The notes beneath the pieces were generated by a model, which saw only the letters and a program-made list of their open reading frames with translations, did not search any database and was not told where the DNA came from. Position numbers and translations under genes: made by a program. Of a stretch of 38,130 nt of DNA, positions 2,670-38,130 are shown one piece after another; position 1 is the first letter of the stretch, and each line of letters begins with the position of its first letter. The DNA is from a virus. The stretch lies in IMG/VR virus record IMGVR_UViG_3300024336_000023, positions 1 through 38,130 of that record; one strand, 5' to 3'.

Positions 2670-2996
2670 CTAAACCAACCCATTTTTTTCTCCTATTTCT
2701 TTTTTAGCTTTGATCCTGAATGCCTGATAATCATCGTAATCAGTGATATCTTTTGCCTTGCCTCTGAATTTATTATTCAGTAAGGCAATTTCATCATCTA
2801 CTGTGTACTTGTCTCTCATAATTGCCCTGATTAAGGAGTCTCTATTCTTGTTTTCAACCTCAATATATTCATAATTAAATACCGTCCTTGTACCGGCTTC
2901 GTCTGTTTTTTGAGACTCAACGATATTAAAATTAAAAAAAGTCTTACCTTTTGATTTGATGAATGCTACGGGCATTGTTTCTGAATTTGCTTTCAT
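2670..2996 (-). CDS. Tail fiber assembly-like protein, amber-terminated
   Basis: A 108-residue protein. The C-terminal pattern (TVDDEIALLNNK, then YQAFRIKAKKEI) is typical of small proteins encoded just after phage fiber genes (XkdW / fiber-assembly type). It presumably helps fold or attach the fiber encoded upstream. The ATG has AAGGAG before it. The stop is TAG, and the same frame stays open for 20 more codons (to TAA at 2607) encoding a perfect coiled-coil heptad stretch, IDALTERLEKLE. This suggests a recent nonsense mutation or amber readthrough. Confidence 0.65.
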   Translation of the reverse strand: MKANSETMPVAFIKSKGKTFFNFNIVESQKTDEAGTRTVFNYEYIEVENKNRDSLIRAIMRDKYTVDDEIALLNNKFRGKAKDITDYDDYQAFRIKAKKEIGEKNGLV

Positions 2997-3089
2997 TTTT
3001 TCTCCTTATGAAAAAGTGTAATATTTATCTATCTTTTTAATCTTTGTATAGAAGGGCAAATTGTCCTTATATTTTCCTAATATTTTGTC

Positions 3090-3230
3090 CTAAAAGCAGA
3101 GCCGCCCGCCGATACTCACATAGTCAACCGACGAAGCGTGATCCAGATGCCAACAAGCGACCCCCGCATACGCCCCATTAGCCGCATGCCCGCCGAGCAG
3201 GGCAACGCGCCAACTTGTGCTTTGATAATA
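3090..3230 (-). other. Putative DGR variable region at the 3' end of the fiber-like gene
   Basis: Codons at the sites that are usually AAC or AAT in DGR templates here read CAT, GCG, GCT, TAT, TGT, CAT, GAT, CAC, GTT and TAT. They sit in an invariant GC-rich frame (GGCGGG, GCTTCGTCG, ATCGGCGGGCGGCTC). The region ends at the stop codon, as expected for a C-terminal variable region. The limits are approximate. Confidence 0.6.
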
Positions 3231-4394
3231 ATAATCTGTAAGATATGTTGATGATGACCCACCAATACTCGCAGGTAAAAACCCACGCGATTGCTGCTCT
3301 AAAGTGATTTGATAACCGTTTGCATTTGCAAGCGTAATACCCAGGTCGGTATAATTAGTCATGGTATCGTCTGCAAAATTGGTATCTGTATTAGACACAT
3401 ATGGAACATTTGCGTTAACATTAATACCATCAACCCATTTCCAGACATTCCCAAAAAAGTTTTCAATGCCTCTGTATGTCATATACGCATCATTGGTATT
3501 GCCACCAACTGAATTTGTCTCATTTCCATCGCTGTTAGATTTTCCACATTTGCCGATGTAGCTATCAGCAACCCATGAACCTCCAGAGAGTTCCGTCCTG
3601 CCCGCCCCGATCATACTCTGAGAATACCAATCCGCATATTCAATCAAATATAAAAGTTGCACAGCGGATGCAAGATCGTAATCCAATTGCCTCCAACCTG
3701 TCCCTCTGTTTGCTGCCATTGCTCTAAACTCTGCTCTCGTTTCATTTACTTTTGGGTAACCATCTGTATCAGATATTGAACAAAGGAGATCCCCCGCAGC
3801 ATACATATTCTCTATAATATCAGCAGCAGGAACCATCTGACTTAAAGAATCATCATACATCGAACCCTCATAAGCTCCTATGTACCGAGAATCAACTTCC
3901 GCTCCATTTTTCGTGAAGGCAGGATGAAGCGTAAATCCATTAAGCTTCGTAAGTGAAATTTCCCATGTATGGACCGTTCCTGAATAGCTGTATCGATAGT
4001 AAAAAGCGGGGATCTCCACCATTACCTGACCAGATGCTCCGGTCAGATCTGAGGCAGTTGAGCAATCAGCCTGCTTCGTCGAATCAGTAGAACATAAATA
4101 ATATTGTACCACTCCGGCATCATTTAAAAGGCACCGTTTTATACCAGCATGGATAGGAAAAATCAGGTCGCTGATAGTTGATTCACTTACGTCAAGCCCC
4201 ACAAATTTTCCTGTCCTGGCATAAACATCCGCTGATTCATCCCACATGACCCCATAATAATCTGTAGCGTACCTGTCGTCGTTAAAAGCCTTAGATGGTC
4301 TTGACTGCATAAACTGTATGCCATCCGCAAACGTGGTTGCAGCCATGGTAAAGGCTATGAACAAAGCCAGGAGGATTGTATTTAACTTTTTCAT
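3090..4394 (-). CDS. Exported fiber-like protein with DGR-type variable C-terminus
   Basis: A 434-residue protein. It begins with a clear Sec signal peptide (residues 1-23, cleavage after TFA). A middle part has the fiber/receptor-binding pattern VEIPAFYYRYSYSG and LHPAFTKNGAEVD, and a C-terminal formylglycine-enzyme / C-type-lectin-like domain begins near GTGWRQLDYDL. The last 45 residues match the layout of a DGR variable region: WRVALLGG, NGAYAGVACWHLDHASS, then IGGRLCF at the very end. The DNA of this end is far richer in GC than its surroundings. In known DGRs such a domain binds receptors and is diversified at adenine positions. No reverse transcriptase or template repeat is visible in the window. 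A signal peptide on a virion-type protein is odd. Confidence 0.75.
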   Translation of the reverse strand: MKKLNTILLALFIAFTMAATTFADGIQFMQSRPSKAFNDDRYATDYYGVMWDESADVYARTGKFVGLDVSESTISDLIFPIHAGIKRCLLNDAGVVQYYLCSTDSTKQADCSTASDLTGASGQVMVEIPAFYYRYSYSGTVHTWEISLTKLNGFTLHPAFTKNGAEVDSRYIGAYEGSMYDDSLSQMVPAADIIENMYAAGDLLCSISDTDGYPKVNETRAEFRAMAANRGTGWRQLDYDLASAVQLLYLIEYADWYSQSMIGAGRTELSGGSWVADSYIGKCGKSNSDGNETNSVGGNTNDAYMTYRGIENFFGNVWKWVDGINVNANVPYVSNTDTNFADDTMTNYTDLGITLANANGYQITLEQQSRGFLPASIGGSSSTYLTDYYYQSTSWRVALLGGHAANGAYAGVACWHLDHASSVDYVSIGGRLCF

Positions 4395-11959: not shown

Positions 11960-12412
11960 TTAAATTAACCGCATTGCACCTTCAATTTTCCCTTCAAAAT
12001 CAATTGTACCAAGCCCATTCTTATCAAATGCAATGCTTGGTTCAGTCATGATTCTAATTACACTAACCATTGTACCAGCAGGCAAACCACCACCGGCAGC
12101 TGTTGTGCTGTTCGGTGTATAGTAACTGGTATCATCAACATAAAATCTGATTGTGGTTAAATCTGATTTAAGCCAATATGCATCTCTGATAAGGTTTTGA
12201 CCCTGTGTGTCATCTGCTTTGTAGTTACCGGCAAAAGTAACATTGCCACCAGTTCTCAACCCTCTTAAAAAGTTATAATCATCATCGCAAAAATCAGTAT
12301 CATCCAATTCTGCGTATGATCCACCTGAAATATTCCAAGTGCCGATTCCTAAAATACAATTTGCACCGATCTTGACAGCAGCATCAATACCGATCTTGCT
12401 TTCATTAGACAT
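11960..12412 (-). CDS. Major tail protein (tail tube subunit)
   Basis: A 150-residue beta-rich protein placed between the tail terminator and glycosyltransferase genes upstream and the chaperone pair downstream, where siphophages encode the tube subunit. The segments DDDYNFLRGLRTGG and TIDFEGKIEGAM are typical of the tube fold. AGGAGA lies upstream of the ATG, inside the end of the glycosyltransferase gene (8-base overlap). It polymerises around the tape measure protein. Confidence 0.75.
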   Translation of the reverse strand: MSNESKIGIDAAVKIGANCILGIGTWNISGGSYAELDDTDFCDDDYNFLRGLRTGGNVTFAGNYKADDTQGQNLIRDAYWLKSDLTTIRFYVDDTSYYTPNSTTAAGGGLPAGTMVSVIRIMTEPSIAFDKNGLGTIDFEGKIEGAMRLI

Positions 12413-13709
12413 TTTTTTTATCTCCTATTATTTTTGTAAATAATTTATACGTTCCAAAATCAACAGCCAATAAAGTCAAATGCTTAATATCAATAGAGCA
12501 ATCAACAAATATTGGTATTTTTAAATCTTTTAATTTTTTGCAAAATCCGATATCTTCGCCAATAGGTTGGCCATGGTCACCAACCGATAGCCTAAAAGGT
12601 TTTGCAGGCAGCATATTATTAAAAATTCGCATGTCATATAGGATGCAACCAGTTCCAGTGTAATCAACCTGCAACTCCTGGTTAAAATTTCCATCTTGAT
12701 CTTTTATTTTATCATCTGATATCTGTCTTAAATTTCCAATGTCACCTTCAAGTAGCAAAGGATCAAATGGCGGATATCTTCTGTGAACCCTTGCCCCCAA
12801 AACCTTTTTATTATGAGCAAGCATTTTATGAATCATGTTATCTGTATTATAAAGTTGATCTGTGTCCATCATCAGAATATGGGTGCATCCCAAAATTAAT
12901 GCTTGGTGAACAAGATTATTCCTTATCTCGTCTATTTGTCCTGGAAAATCTGGCATAACCACATCAAATGAGACTGGTTTGCCTGATCGGATTAGAGATG
13001 ATTGATATTCAGTTATAACTTTTATAAATGTAAAAAAGAATTGTGTGTAAACTTTATCATCGGTCAATGGCACTGCAATGGCAAGTTTGACCCCATATTT
13101 TTCCTGCATCCTGTCACGTTTCCGGTTGCAATATGTTTTAAAATCATGAATCTGCTTATCTTCTTTATATGCAAACTGATATCCTTCATCATCATCTGCA
13201 GTGGCATTGATAGGATGATTGTGCAGCACTCTTGATTTCTTTGCCCGAACCCATCTACCCATTTCCTCTGCAATATCTTTCAGTTCATTGTCACACCAGC
13301 AATGTTTATATTCAGTTGAAAAAAAATAACCACCCGGAATATGATCAAGCATTTTTTTATGCGCCATCCAGTGTGCAATTGGATTGCCATTTTTTAGATC
13401 TCTTATATCCTGGGTATTGAGTCCGACAACACCCCAACCATCTGGCAAAGTTTCCATGGCATCAATGGCATGTTTTAGAAAATCTTTTTCAGGAATTGTG
13501 TCATCCCCCAAGAACATGACAGTGTTAAAATTTGCCATGTCAGTCAGTTTTTTAACCATTCCGGGGCAACCGACTTTATCTAAATCAAAGGCTGTTAAAA
13601 TCTCAAATTGTTCATCTGGCACTCCAGCATTTTGCTTTATCGCCTGGATACATCTTTTAGCGCCCTCCTGTCTTATCACCGGAATAATAATTGATACTTT
13701 TTGCTCCAT
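12405..13709 (-). CDS. Two-domain glycosyltransferase within the tail module
   Basis: A 434-residue protein with two GT-A-like halves. The first starts with KVSIIIPVIR and has the acidic metal motif FLGDDTIPEKDF. The second has MMDTDQLYN (a DxD motif) and later GEDIGFC. The start at 13709 is supported by GGGAG. It should transfer a sugar from a nucleotide donor; the acceptor is unknown. Its position between the tail terminator and the major tail protein suggests that it glycosylates a virion protein, as reported for glycosyltransferase genes set beside structural genes in some phages, but that is inference. Modification of the host surface or of DNA are alternatives. Confidence 0.75.
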   Translation of the reverse strand: MEQKVSIIIPVIRQEGAKRCIQAIKQNAGVPDEQFEILTAFDLDKVGCPGMVKKLTDMANFNTVMFLGDDTIPEKDFLKHAIDAMETLPDGWGVVGLNTQDIRDLKNGNPIAHWMAHKKMLDHIPGGYFFSTEYKHCWCDNELKDIAEEMGRWVRAKKSRVLHNHPINATADDDEGYQFAYKEDKQIHDFKTYCNRKRDRMQEKYGVKLAIAVPLTDDKVYTQFFFTFIKVITEYQSSLIRSGKPVSFDVVMPDFPGQIDEIRNNLVHQALILGCTHILMMDTDQLYNTDNMIHKMLAHNKKVLGARVHRRYPPFDPLLLEGDIGNLRQISDDKIKDQDGNFNQELQVDYTGTGCILYDMRIFNNMLPAKPFRLSVGDHGQPIGEDIGFCKKLKDLKIPIFVDCSIDIKHLTLLAVDFGTYKLFTKIIGDKKNV

Positions 13710-13725
13710 TAATTTGCTCCCTTTT

Positions 13726-14139
13726 TTAGCTTCTTGCCTTTTCAAGTAAAACATTATAGCCAACAGAATACCCCTGCACTGGTGGCACTTGTGAATAATC
13801 ATTATTCGGGTTAACCATGTCTCTTTTAAATTGCAAATGTCGCCATCCTGTTACCGTCAAAATACAATTATCAAACATGATTTTTAACGATTCCAGAAGG
13901 TTGCCTGCTTCAAGGGCAGAATTGTTTTTACTAAAAATATTAAACTGAATTAAAAAATTTTCATGTTCATCTGAAAAATCTAAATCATCAACATCAGAAA
14001 CGGAGAAATAAACACAATATGGAAACGTGGCCTGCTGCGGTGCTACATTATGATACATCCGTCCCGAAACATCGTTATAAAAACCGGCTGTGGTCGTAGC
14101 TGAAAAATGGTTAAAAATACCTTTAAATAAACTGTTCAT
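13726..14139 (-). CDS. Tail terminator / completion protein (DUF3168-like)
   Basis: A 137-residue protein. The pattern of a short N-terminal helix, RMYHNVAPQQATFPYCVYF, a central beta strand with LIQFNIFSKNNS, and a helix NLLESLKIMFDN fits the tail terminator family that caps the tail tube. It follows the HK97 gp10-like gene, the usual neck order. Confidence 0.75.
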   Translation of the reverse strand: MNSLFKGIFNHFSATTTAGFYNDVSGRMYHNVAPQQATFPYCVYFSVSDVDDLDFSDEHENFLIQFNIFSKNNSALEAGNLLESLKIMFDNCILTVTGWRHLQFKRDMVNPNNDYSQVPPVQGYSVGYNVLLEKARS

Positions 14140-26618: not shown

Positions 26619-28934
26619 TTAAATCTCCTGTAATTCAAACATTCCACGTTTTTTATTAAACAATACTTTTTCCTCAGTGCCTTTTGCTCCCTGCCTGTTT
26701 TTAGCAAGAATGATTTTGGTTTGAGATTCATCTATGTTTTCATCATAATAGCCGGGTCTAAATATAAAAAAGATCAGGTCTGCATCCTCTTCAAGCATTC
26801 CTGTTTGTTTTAGATCTGACATTTCAGGAGTTTTATTTTTCCTCATTTCCACGTTTCTGTTTAGCTGACACAACAACCCTATTGGCATCCTTAACTCTTT
26901 TTTAAGCAAAGCGATTGCGGCACAATTATCTGTATAAACTTCAAACTTACTTTTTTTAGAATCACCACGGATTTTTGATAGCTGATCTATGAATATAATT
27001 TCACAACCCATTTTCTTAAACTTGCGGCATTTACGTTCTACATCCTGAATGGTGCAGTCCGCATCATCAATGTAAATTGGCAGTGTTGATAAAAAATCTG
27101 CTGAATTTGTAACAGCCGACATAGATTCATCACTTAATGATTCTTTTGCATAAAAACACAATGAATTCACATTAGATTCTATACTTATCAGCCGGTCAGA
27201 TAATGATTCTTTATCCATCTCGATGGAAAGGAAACCAACCTTAACTCCTCTTGTCGCCAGGTGTTTTGCAATAGACAATGCCAGCGCAGTGTTATGTGTT
27301 GTTATATAGTTATTTGTAAGATATAAAGCTTTTTGATGGTCAACAGATATACATTGACATTTATAATCACCAGCATGTACGATTGATTCTATATTCAATC
27401 TACGTGTAAATTTTTTCTTAACCACTCTTTTCTTTTTATGGGGGATTGTCACGAAGGAATCATAGCCTTTAAAACTGATATAAATATTATATAATACTCT
27501 CCCAACTTTTTTAATTCCTTTGTATTTAAAATAAGGTAGCCTTGATTTTAAAGATGCGTATGCACCTAAAGAACGGGCAAGTTTTTGAAAATCCAAAGCC
27601 AATTGCTTACTCGATGTTGAATAAGTCATAGAACCATTCTTTTCTACAGTACCATCAGTATCTATTAAACCCCTTATCAATTCTAATCGACTTTCTTTAG
27701 TGGCTGATAAATATTGTTTTGGGATAAATTTTTCATAAGATCTTTTCCCTCTCAACCCTAAATTATCTATATTTTCTAAAAGTTGATTGCTTTGTCCTCT
27801 TGGTGTCACAATTCTATATGTAATTTTTTGATCTAACTTTAAATTAGCACCAAGCAACATTGGTTTAATTTTTTCTAAAATATGTTCATAAGATGTTGTT
27901 AATTTAATACCACTTGTTAATCCACCGTCACCCAACAGCACCCCAAGTAAATATGGATGAACTAAAATGTTATTATCTATTCCAAAATCTCCAGTATGAT
28001 TTGGGATATATATACGTTTTCGATATCTTTTATATTTTAATTTTCTTATTAACTGTTTTGTTGTCAACACTCTTGGCTTATCCCATTCACGATACATAAC
28101 TTCCCATTGGTGCTCAAGCCCTGCTTTAACACATCTACCATCACTAAATTCAATCTCATACACAGGTTTAATTCCTTGTGGAAAAACCCCTACCACTTTT
28201 GATTCTTTACCATCTATTGATGCAACTTTATCCCCGACCATAACATCCCCCATTTTTTTAAAGGTTCCGTTATATAGTAACACATCTGAGCATAAAGTCA
28301 ACTCTTTTCCCATCCCTGGCCTTGCAGCAATGAGAAATAGTTTAGAACCATACATATTTGTGTAATCATCAAGAGTTGGGAGCCCAAACCTTAAACCCAT
28401 CTCTATTTCTTGAGACTGTGCTTTTTCAATTCTATCTACTGCATCCAGCATCAAGGTCTCCATATCCCATATTTGGTCTTGAGAAGAAGTTGTCTGGATT
28501 TCAAGAATGGATTTCTGCGCCTGATTTATATAATCTTCCACGTTAGAGACTTTAAACCCTTGCTCTATTATCCCTGATGCTTTGTTTATTAATTTTCTTA
28601 CAACGGAAAGATCCTGAATAATCTTTCCGTAATGTTTAATATTTACTGCCACCGGAGCAGCATCAGAAATTTGAGCCAAATAAGCAGCACCACCAATTGA
28701 TTCTAACTCTTCTTTTTCTTTTAACCGGGATGCAATAGTAACCAGATCAATAGGTTCTTTTTTTTTCTTTAAATCCAACATAGATTTGAAAATAATTTTA
28801 TTTGCACTTTTATAAAAATCATCTGGCTTGAGAGAATCTATGTCTTCAAAACCATCGTTACTCATAAACAAAGCAGATAATACTGATTCTTCAGCATCGA
28901 TGTCTTGTGGTGGTAATCTATTATCCAGGTTCAT
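26619..28934 (-). CDS. dnaB: Replicative DnaB-type helicase interrupted by an intein
   Basis: The precursor has 771 residues. Residues 1-210 and 549-771 form a normal DnaB helicase of about 433 residues: the N-terminal domain starts LPPQDIDAEESVLSALF; Walker A ARPGMGK is joined after splicing to TALALSIA; CEIIFIDQLSKI is Walker B; CQLNRNVE and LAKNRQG follow. It unwinds DNA at the fork and is loaded by the O-like protein encoded upstream, with which it overlaps by ATGA. Residues 211-548 are an intein placed between Lys and Thr of the P-loop, so the helicase should be inactive until splicing. Confidence 0.95.
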   Translation of the reverse strand: MNLDNRLPPQDIDAEESVLSALFMSNDGFEDIDSLKPDDFYKSANKIIFKSMLDLKKKKEPIDLVTIASRLKEKEELESIGGAAYLAQISDAAPVAVNIKHYGKIIQDLSVVRKLINKASGIIEQGFKVSNVEDYINQAQKSILEIQTTSSQDQIWDMETLMLDAVDRIEKAQSQEIEMGLRFGLPTLDDYTNMYGSKLFLIAARPGMGKELTLCSDVLLYNGTFKKMGDVMVGDKVASIDGKESKVVGVFPQGIKPVYEIEFSDGRCVKAGLEHQWEVMYREWDKPRVLTTKQLIRKLKYKRYRKRIYIPNHTGDFGIDNNILVHPYLLGVLLGDGGLTSGIKLTTSYEHILEKIKPMLLGANLKLDQKITYRIVTPRGQSNQLLENIDNLGLRGKRSYEKFIPKQYLSATKESRLELIRGLIDTDGTVEKNGSMTYSTSSKQLALDFQKLARSLGAYASLKSRLPYFKYKGIKKVGRVLYNIYISFKGYDSFVTIPHKKKRVVKKKFTRRLNIESIVHAGDYKCQCISVDHQKALYLTNNYITTHNTALALSIAKHLATRGVKVGFLSIEMDKESLSDRLISIESNVNSLCFYAKESLSDESMSAVTNSADFLSTLPIYIDDADCTIQDVERKCRKFKKMGCEIIFIDQLSKIRGDSKKSKFEVYTDNCAAIALLKKELRMPIGLLCQLNRNVEMRKNKTPEMSDLKQTGMLEEDADLIFFIFRPGYYDENIDESQTKIILAKNRQGAKGTEEKVLFNKKRGMFELQEI
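27291..28304 (-). mobile_element. LAGLIDADG intein in the helicase P-loop, class 3-like
   Basis: A 338-residue intein (precursor residues 211-548). It starts with Glu where Cys or Ser is expected, yet the rest of block A is present (LTLCSDVLLYNG). Block B has EHQW (His275, Trp277). Block F has CQCISVD (Cys528). It ends TTHN with Thr549 as the next residue. Trp, block F Cys and Thr546 form the WCT set of class 3 inteins, which do without an N-terminal nucleophile. Two LAGLIDADG motifs (LLGVLLGDGG at 329, LIRGLIDTDG at 419) mark a homing endonuclease that may still be active. Confidence 0.88.
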
Positions 28935-37806: not shown

Positions 37807-38082
37807 TTAAATCCTCCTGACAGAATATGTCACCATCGGGGAGGCGATTTCCATCACCTCCTCTTTTGTTAATTCTTTCCCTCTCATCTCAGGGGTGAAC
37901 CTAAGAGGAACCTCGGAAAATGATTTTGTCAAGCATGAAAGACTATGAGGTAATACGCCGATTACGTCCCTACCTCTTACAATTTCAGGAGAAGCATGAG
38001 TCACAACTTCTCCCTCAATTCCGTATTCTTCTTTTAAAAATTGTACCAACCCTGGGTGCCTAGTTACTATCAATTTTTCCAT
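37807..38082 (-). CDS. csx16: Csx16-family (VVA1548) protein, candidate anti-type III CRISPR factor
   Basis: A 91-residue protein with the Csx16 pattern: LIVTRHPG at 4-11, a conserved His29, GRDVIGVLPHSL at 37-48 and MRGKELTKEE at 66-75. Csx16 is found beside type III CRISPR systems; comparative work places it in a Rossmann-like group proposed to bind or cut cyclic oligoadenylates. In a phage with no CRISPR genes it is a natural candidate for destroying that alarm signal, as AcrIII-1 does. The strong GGAGGG site fixes the start at 38082. Enzymatic activity is inference. Confidence 0.8.
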   Translation of the reverse strand: MEKLIVTRHPGLVQFLKEEYGIEGEVVTHASPEIVRGRDVIGVLPHSLSCLTKSFSEVPLRFTPEMRGKELTKEEVMEIASPMVTYSVRRI

Positions 38083-38130
38083 GTCGTCCCTCCTTTTTTT
38101 CCACGTTTTATTATAAATTATGTTTTTCAA
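38005..38130. repeat. Terminal direct repeat, right copy
   Basis: Identical to 5-130. It contains the start of the Csx16 gene and the 3' end of the gene at 111-419, and joins the two contig ends into a circle. Confidence 0.9.

Follow-up and report, generated by a model that had tools for sequence, protein, structure and literature searches.

The gene for a 434-residue tail protein in the viral record IMGVR_UViG_3300024336_000023, analysed here as one stretch of 38,130 nucleotides (the window), very probably marks a decayed, cis-encoded phage DGR, from which the template (TR) and reverse transcriptase (RT) were lost by deletion and in which the variable region (VR) is now frozen. In the ancestral locus, TR and RT would have come after the target gene with its VR, and a small gene for an OB-fold-like accessory protein would have stood between RT and p108; the present VR would have been written by mutagenic retrohoming. 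A deletion of approximately 1.6 kb, presumably a single event, would then have taken out both TR and RT and fused a point just past the stop codon of the target to the final quarter of the accessory gene. The formerly hypervariable surface of the tail protein, which probably binds a receptor, would now be frozen and change by ordinary mutation only, with no trans-acting DGR expected to serve the target. What at first appears to be a puzzle, a hypervariable region lacking a mutator, resolves into the loss of a cassette that left a physical scar behind. The coordinates of the locus are given in Table 1.

Table 1. Features of the decayed DGR locus and its surroundings in the window.
Feature	Position	Strand	Basis
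Endolysin (peptidase M15), synteny anchor common to the window and L138-L141	1102..1458	-	Pfam PF08291; 45-47% relatives downstream of p108
p108, which lies behind RT or the accessory gene where the cassette is intact and immediately behind the scar in the window	2670..2996	-	tblastn relatives behind RT in L001, L005, L006, L009, L019, L022, L031, L138-L141
Scar: final 22 codons of the DGR accessory gene with its stop, KYKDNLPFYTKIKKIDKYYTFS*	3006..3074	-	20/22 residues as in L138; profile E 5.3e-10
Interval with the putative junction of the deletion (lost: TR, RT and the larger part of the accessory gene; ~1.6 kb by the L138 layout)	3075..3091	-	DNA alignment to L138
Target gene, 434-residue tail protein ending in a C-type lectin-like (TaqVP/FGE-type) domain	3090..4394	-	phrog_5302 tail protein, E 1.5e-95; 5VF4 (TaqVP) profile, E 1.2e-5; model against TaqVP, Z 21.4
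Variable region (VR), 118 nt, template no longer alongside	3096..3213	-	A-specific differences from the L002 TR, p=1.4e-8; 10/10 NNY

The original prediction, made from the letters of the sequence, had placed the frame of a DGR-type VR at the C-terminus of a 434-residue ORF, and the ORF, its motifs and its coordinates were found as described; the C-terminal end reads WRVALLGGHAANGAYAGVACWHLDHASSVDYVSIGGRLCF. The modelled protein matches TaqVP of Thermus aquaticus (PDB 5VF4) with a Z of 21.4 over 271 residues and Mtd of Bordetella phage BPP-1 with a Z of 7.1-7.5, at a mean pLDDT of only 67 and with a poorly modelled, longer N-terminal part. It shares with TaqVP its family and fold, including a VR at the C-terminal end of the C-type lectin domain, but the two are only 20% identical over the aligned part, and the longer N-terminal part is peculiar to the window protein. 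Mtd, too, is a tail protein of the C-type lectin kind in which the C-terminus is diversified, although the structural match is weaker. Unlike the window, BPP-1 carries a working cassette of avd, TR and brt (PMC12875486); none of these components is intact in the window, and the accessory gene lost from it is OB-fold-like.

The sharp rise in GC content claimed for this end of the gene was also borne out, with 64% GC and 11 adenines in the 118 nt of the VR, as opposed to mostly 0.33-0.45 GC in its surroundings. Such a rise is expected because adenines have been lost from the VR, and the VRs of relatives show the same when set against their own TRs. Relative to the TR of the related locus L002, the window VR is changed at 26 of 37 template adenines and at 13 of the remaining 81 bases (Fisher p=1.4e-8), and all 11 adenines that it retains are adenines in that TR. 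The ten AAY codons of the L002 template all correspond to NNY codons in the window VR, with the third base unchanged in nine; at the NNY rate of 55% found elsewhere in the target gene, ten of ten would arise by chance about three times in 1000. Changes of A alone in Asn codons are enough to give every residue found at these positions (H, A, N, Y, H, D, H, V, Y and S). Judged by this pattern of substitution, the window VR is a genuine DGR-type variable region and not a chance signature. Differences from the TR at template adenines, along with a C-type lectin (FGE/TaqVP-type) fold that carries the VR at its C-terminus (pLDDT 67), characterize the gene as a former DGR target.

The 38-kb record carries an exact terminal direct repeat of 126 nt (5-130 and 38005-38130), and the genome is therefore probably a closed circle, consistent with the earlier impression of a complete contig. 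The predicted lack of RT and TR in this genome was likewise upheld. A search of the whole record with RVT_1 returned no match, and neither tblastn with the RT ORFs of relatives nor a profile of those ORFs gave a credible RT match anywhere in it. The L002 and L051 RT queries did match at the VR, but these matches reflect TR sequence translated at the N-terminal ends of those open frames and were rejected as RT, as was a long match to the L041 query, which is a target paralogue. An A-tolerant scan of both strands of the record found no second copy of the VR, the next-best site having 30 unexplained mismatches in 121 positions, and the only match to the L138 and L002 TRs by blastn was the VR itself. 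Of the RT, TR and intact accessory gene that a functional cis-acting DGR requires, nothing is thus left in the window but the final 22 accessory codons.

No accessory protein had been visible to the original prediction; an intact gene is indeed absent, but its 3' end remains. Between the target stop codon and the start of p108 lies a gap of 93 nt, which encodes the accessory C-terminus and is the sole significant match, in six frames, to a profile of 19 accessory proteins (E 5.3e-10). The scar matches the accessory C-termini of L138-L141 (21 of 24 residues over the blast segment), L002, L019, L022 and others. In DNA alignment with L138, similarity stops at the target stop codon, resumes at 3075 inside the accessory gene and then extends, at 77% identity, across the scar and into p108, which places the breakpoint no more than about 15 nt past the target stop. 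The position between target and p108 that is filled by TR, RT and accessory gene in L138-L141, L019 and L022 is thus filled in the window by the accessory scar, as is the mark of a DGR remnant. Because p108 adjoins the target across a gap that still encodes the accessory end, the cassette appears to have been encoded in cis and then deleted in place. An assignment of the scar to the RT C-terminus was considered and rejected, as in L022 and L002 the ORF for the RT ends before the scar sequence and the accessory protein has an ORF of its own. The target and scar share a reading frame, with a TAG between them, and a readthrough fusion of the two was also considered; no evidence for such a fusion was found.

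Relatives of the target are encoded at fifty viral loci, with RVT_1 detected in 28 of those records, and at about 27 of the loci a TR lies shortly behind the VR, with mismatches nearly all at template adenines. The closest intact cassettes, L138-L141, were found by searching with the RTs of relatives, and no intact cassette came to light in any closer relative. Their order is target, TR, RT, a 98-residue OB-fold-like accessory protein, p108 and, further on, endolysin, and the targets of L138-L140 are 68% identical to that of the window. L138, L139 and L140 are 99.1-99.5% identical across 6 kb; since these near-identical contigs have one common TR and differing VRs, their cassette is active in nature. 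A search for closer phages with TerL yielded only the fragment L112 (88% across the final 176 residues), the sequence of which does not include the target region, and no relatives of p108 were confirmed in the viral_contigs collection. Nine further target relatives are present in genome_contigs, where a TR lies beside the target only at the Deltaproteobacteria locus L127; RVT_1 matches occur elsewhere in the genomes of these relatives, with no tie to the targets. Two target relatives come from archaeal settings, namely that of Candidatus Methanoperedens nitroreducens (L130; 53%), which has no TR nearby and VR residues unreachable from AAY, and that of Methanosarcina virus MetMV (H1, MK170447.1; 41.5%).

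The scar also bears on the timing of the loss. It differs from L138 at 11 of 66 nt, and eight of these differences are synonymous; random change gave a mean of 1.7, and eight was never reached in 5000 trials. The same, mostly synonymous picture was obtained against the accessory genes of five other relatives. Because the differences are mostly synonymous, the accessory gene would have remained under selection until late, and the deletion would itself be late. In the TR-bearing relatives 7-10 of the ten codons are NNY, mostly all ten, as in the window. Loss of the cassette was thus probably recent, a reading based on 11 nucleotide differences in a short scar of 22 codons, mostly synonymous, and on the ten Asn-derived VR codons, all of which still fit AAY.

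The same undecayed codons could be expected if, after loss of its own DGR, the phage still had its VR rewritten in trans by a DGR of a host, a prophage or a co-infecting phage, which would supply RT and TR, with continued hypermutation of the receptor-binding protein. DGRs with remote targets exist (PMC8144416), and in an engineered BPP-1 system DGR components function from separate plasmids and can act on a target carried by a different replicon (PMC12875486), which makes trans-action mechanistically possible. Recent loss explains the codons equally well, however, and the TR that such a donor must supply did not emerge, which leaves trans-diversification, also raised in the original prediction, unsupported and unlikely. 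No TR matching the window VR at all non-A positions was found among 2.9 million viral contigs with A-tolerant patterns for its 3' half (43 nt) and 5' half (58 nt), nor with the 43-nt pattern among the 84,980 genomes of genome_contigs, both collections from which records very near the window may have been left out. Among more than 200 loci, the best TR for the window VR leaves 12 unexplained mismatches in 118. An exact search of viral_contigs with the constant 23-mer at the 5' end of the VR gave no match, since the TRs of relatives carry A even in GGR codons, and an exact search with the 3' 19-mer returned eight contigs with related VRs and no TR for that of the window.

An artefact of assembly, in which the real genome retains a TR and RT that the assembler skipped, is very unlikely. 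Assemblies can collapse at VR/TR repeats and at population variants, but the junction in the window lies outside the VR/TR repeat, and RT-less layouts recur in L003, L016, L030, L054, L055 and L057, with L055 bearing a scar of its own. The remaining proposal, that a phage which never had its own DGR at this locus gained by recombination a C-terminus that was already varied, could draw on the abrupt shift in GC at the VR and on DGR-bearing relatives as possible donors, but is hardly credible given that higher GC is what the loss of adenines in a VR should bring, that the accessory scar lies between target and p108 in the place and order of the cassette, pointing to a cassette once in cis and then deleted, and that any donor fragment with both VR and scar would itself be a decayed cassette. 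Loss can be distinguished simply from trans-action or acquisition by asking whether any part of the cassette survives ahead of the conserved gene that follows the target, and whether codons derived from the template have kept the NNY form.

RT-less targets recur in the family. Those with a good downstream stretch include L003, L016, L030, L035, L036, L042, L054, L055, L057, L129 and L130. In L055, an 89-kb record without RVT_1, a nine-codon accessory remnant (KIDRYYTLA*) follows right behind the target (L055:1541-1617), with a weak score (E 4.3) and in the right place; this locus is probably a second, independent cassette deletion. Other losses look older by the state of their VRs. The RT-less loci L035, L036 and L037 have near-identical VRs on differing backgrounds, with Met at a former variable site, and theirs looks like an old and frozen VR, while L016, L030, L038 and L130 contain non-NNY codons or residues that AAY cannot yield. 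A TR is retained in L015, a 71-kb record without RVT_1, and a TR or its remnant in L021 and L026, short contigs with no RT nearby. With VRs that range from clean to decayed, these recurrent RT-less targets may be used to ask when phages abandon targeted hypermutation.

The loss of RT with retention of a VR-bearing target is already known, and the window is a clear example of it rather than a new system. In AlphacrAssvirinae genus I, complete DGR cassettes are found in 15 of 91 genomes and incomplete ones in 66 (PMC7290462; PMC11054128). As in the window, these crAss-like phages keep the VR-bearing tail or receptor-binding protein while the RT is fragmented or deleted. They are a different phage group, however, and the junction of the window has an accessory-gene scar, which allows a dating argument; scar and dating are what the window locus adds. 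Treponema denticola isolates without RT and TR also have target genes, which are viewed as remnants of a lost core DGR (PMC4891356); these lie in a bacterial chromosome, in contrast to the free phage of the window.

The accessory protein itself is possibly of more interest than the loss. An ORF of about 98 residues lies behind the RT at some 34 loci (e.g. L138:3462-3755, L022:3467-3760 and L002:4482-4775) and is fused to the RT C-terminus in L046. It belongs to no Pfam family and matches phrog_19665 weakly. Its confident model (pLDDT 91.5) has OB-folds, including bacterial SSBs, among its best matches, at Z 5-7, which is below the convincing level for a fold match alone. From this model, the accessory protein may serve DGRs as a cofactor that binds ssDNA and differs from Avd. 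A literature search for an OB-fold accessory protein in DGRs found no paper joining the two. Elsewhere in the window, a 465-residue protein within the structural gene block (12405-13802, minus strand) has a marginal match to Anp1 glycosyltransferase, and the DnaB helicase (26619-28934, minus strand) contains an intein with a LAGLIDADG endonuclease domain at approximately residues 217-545.
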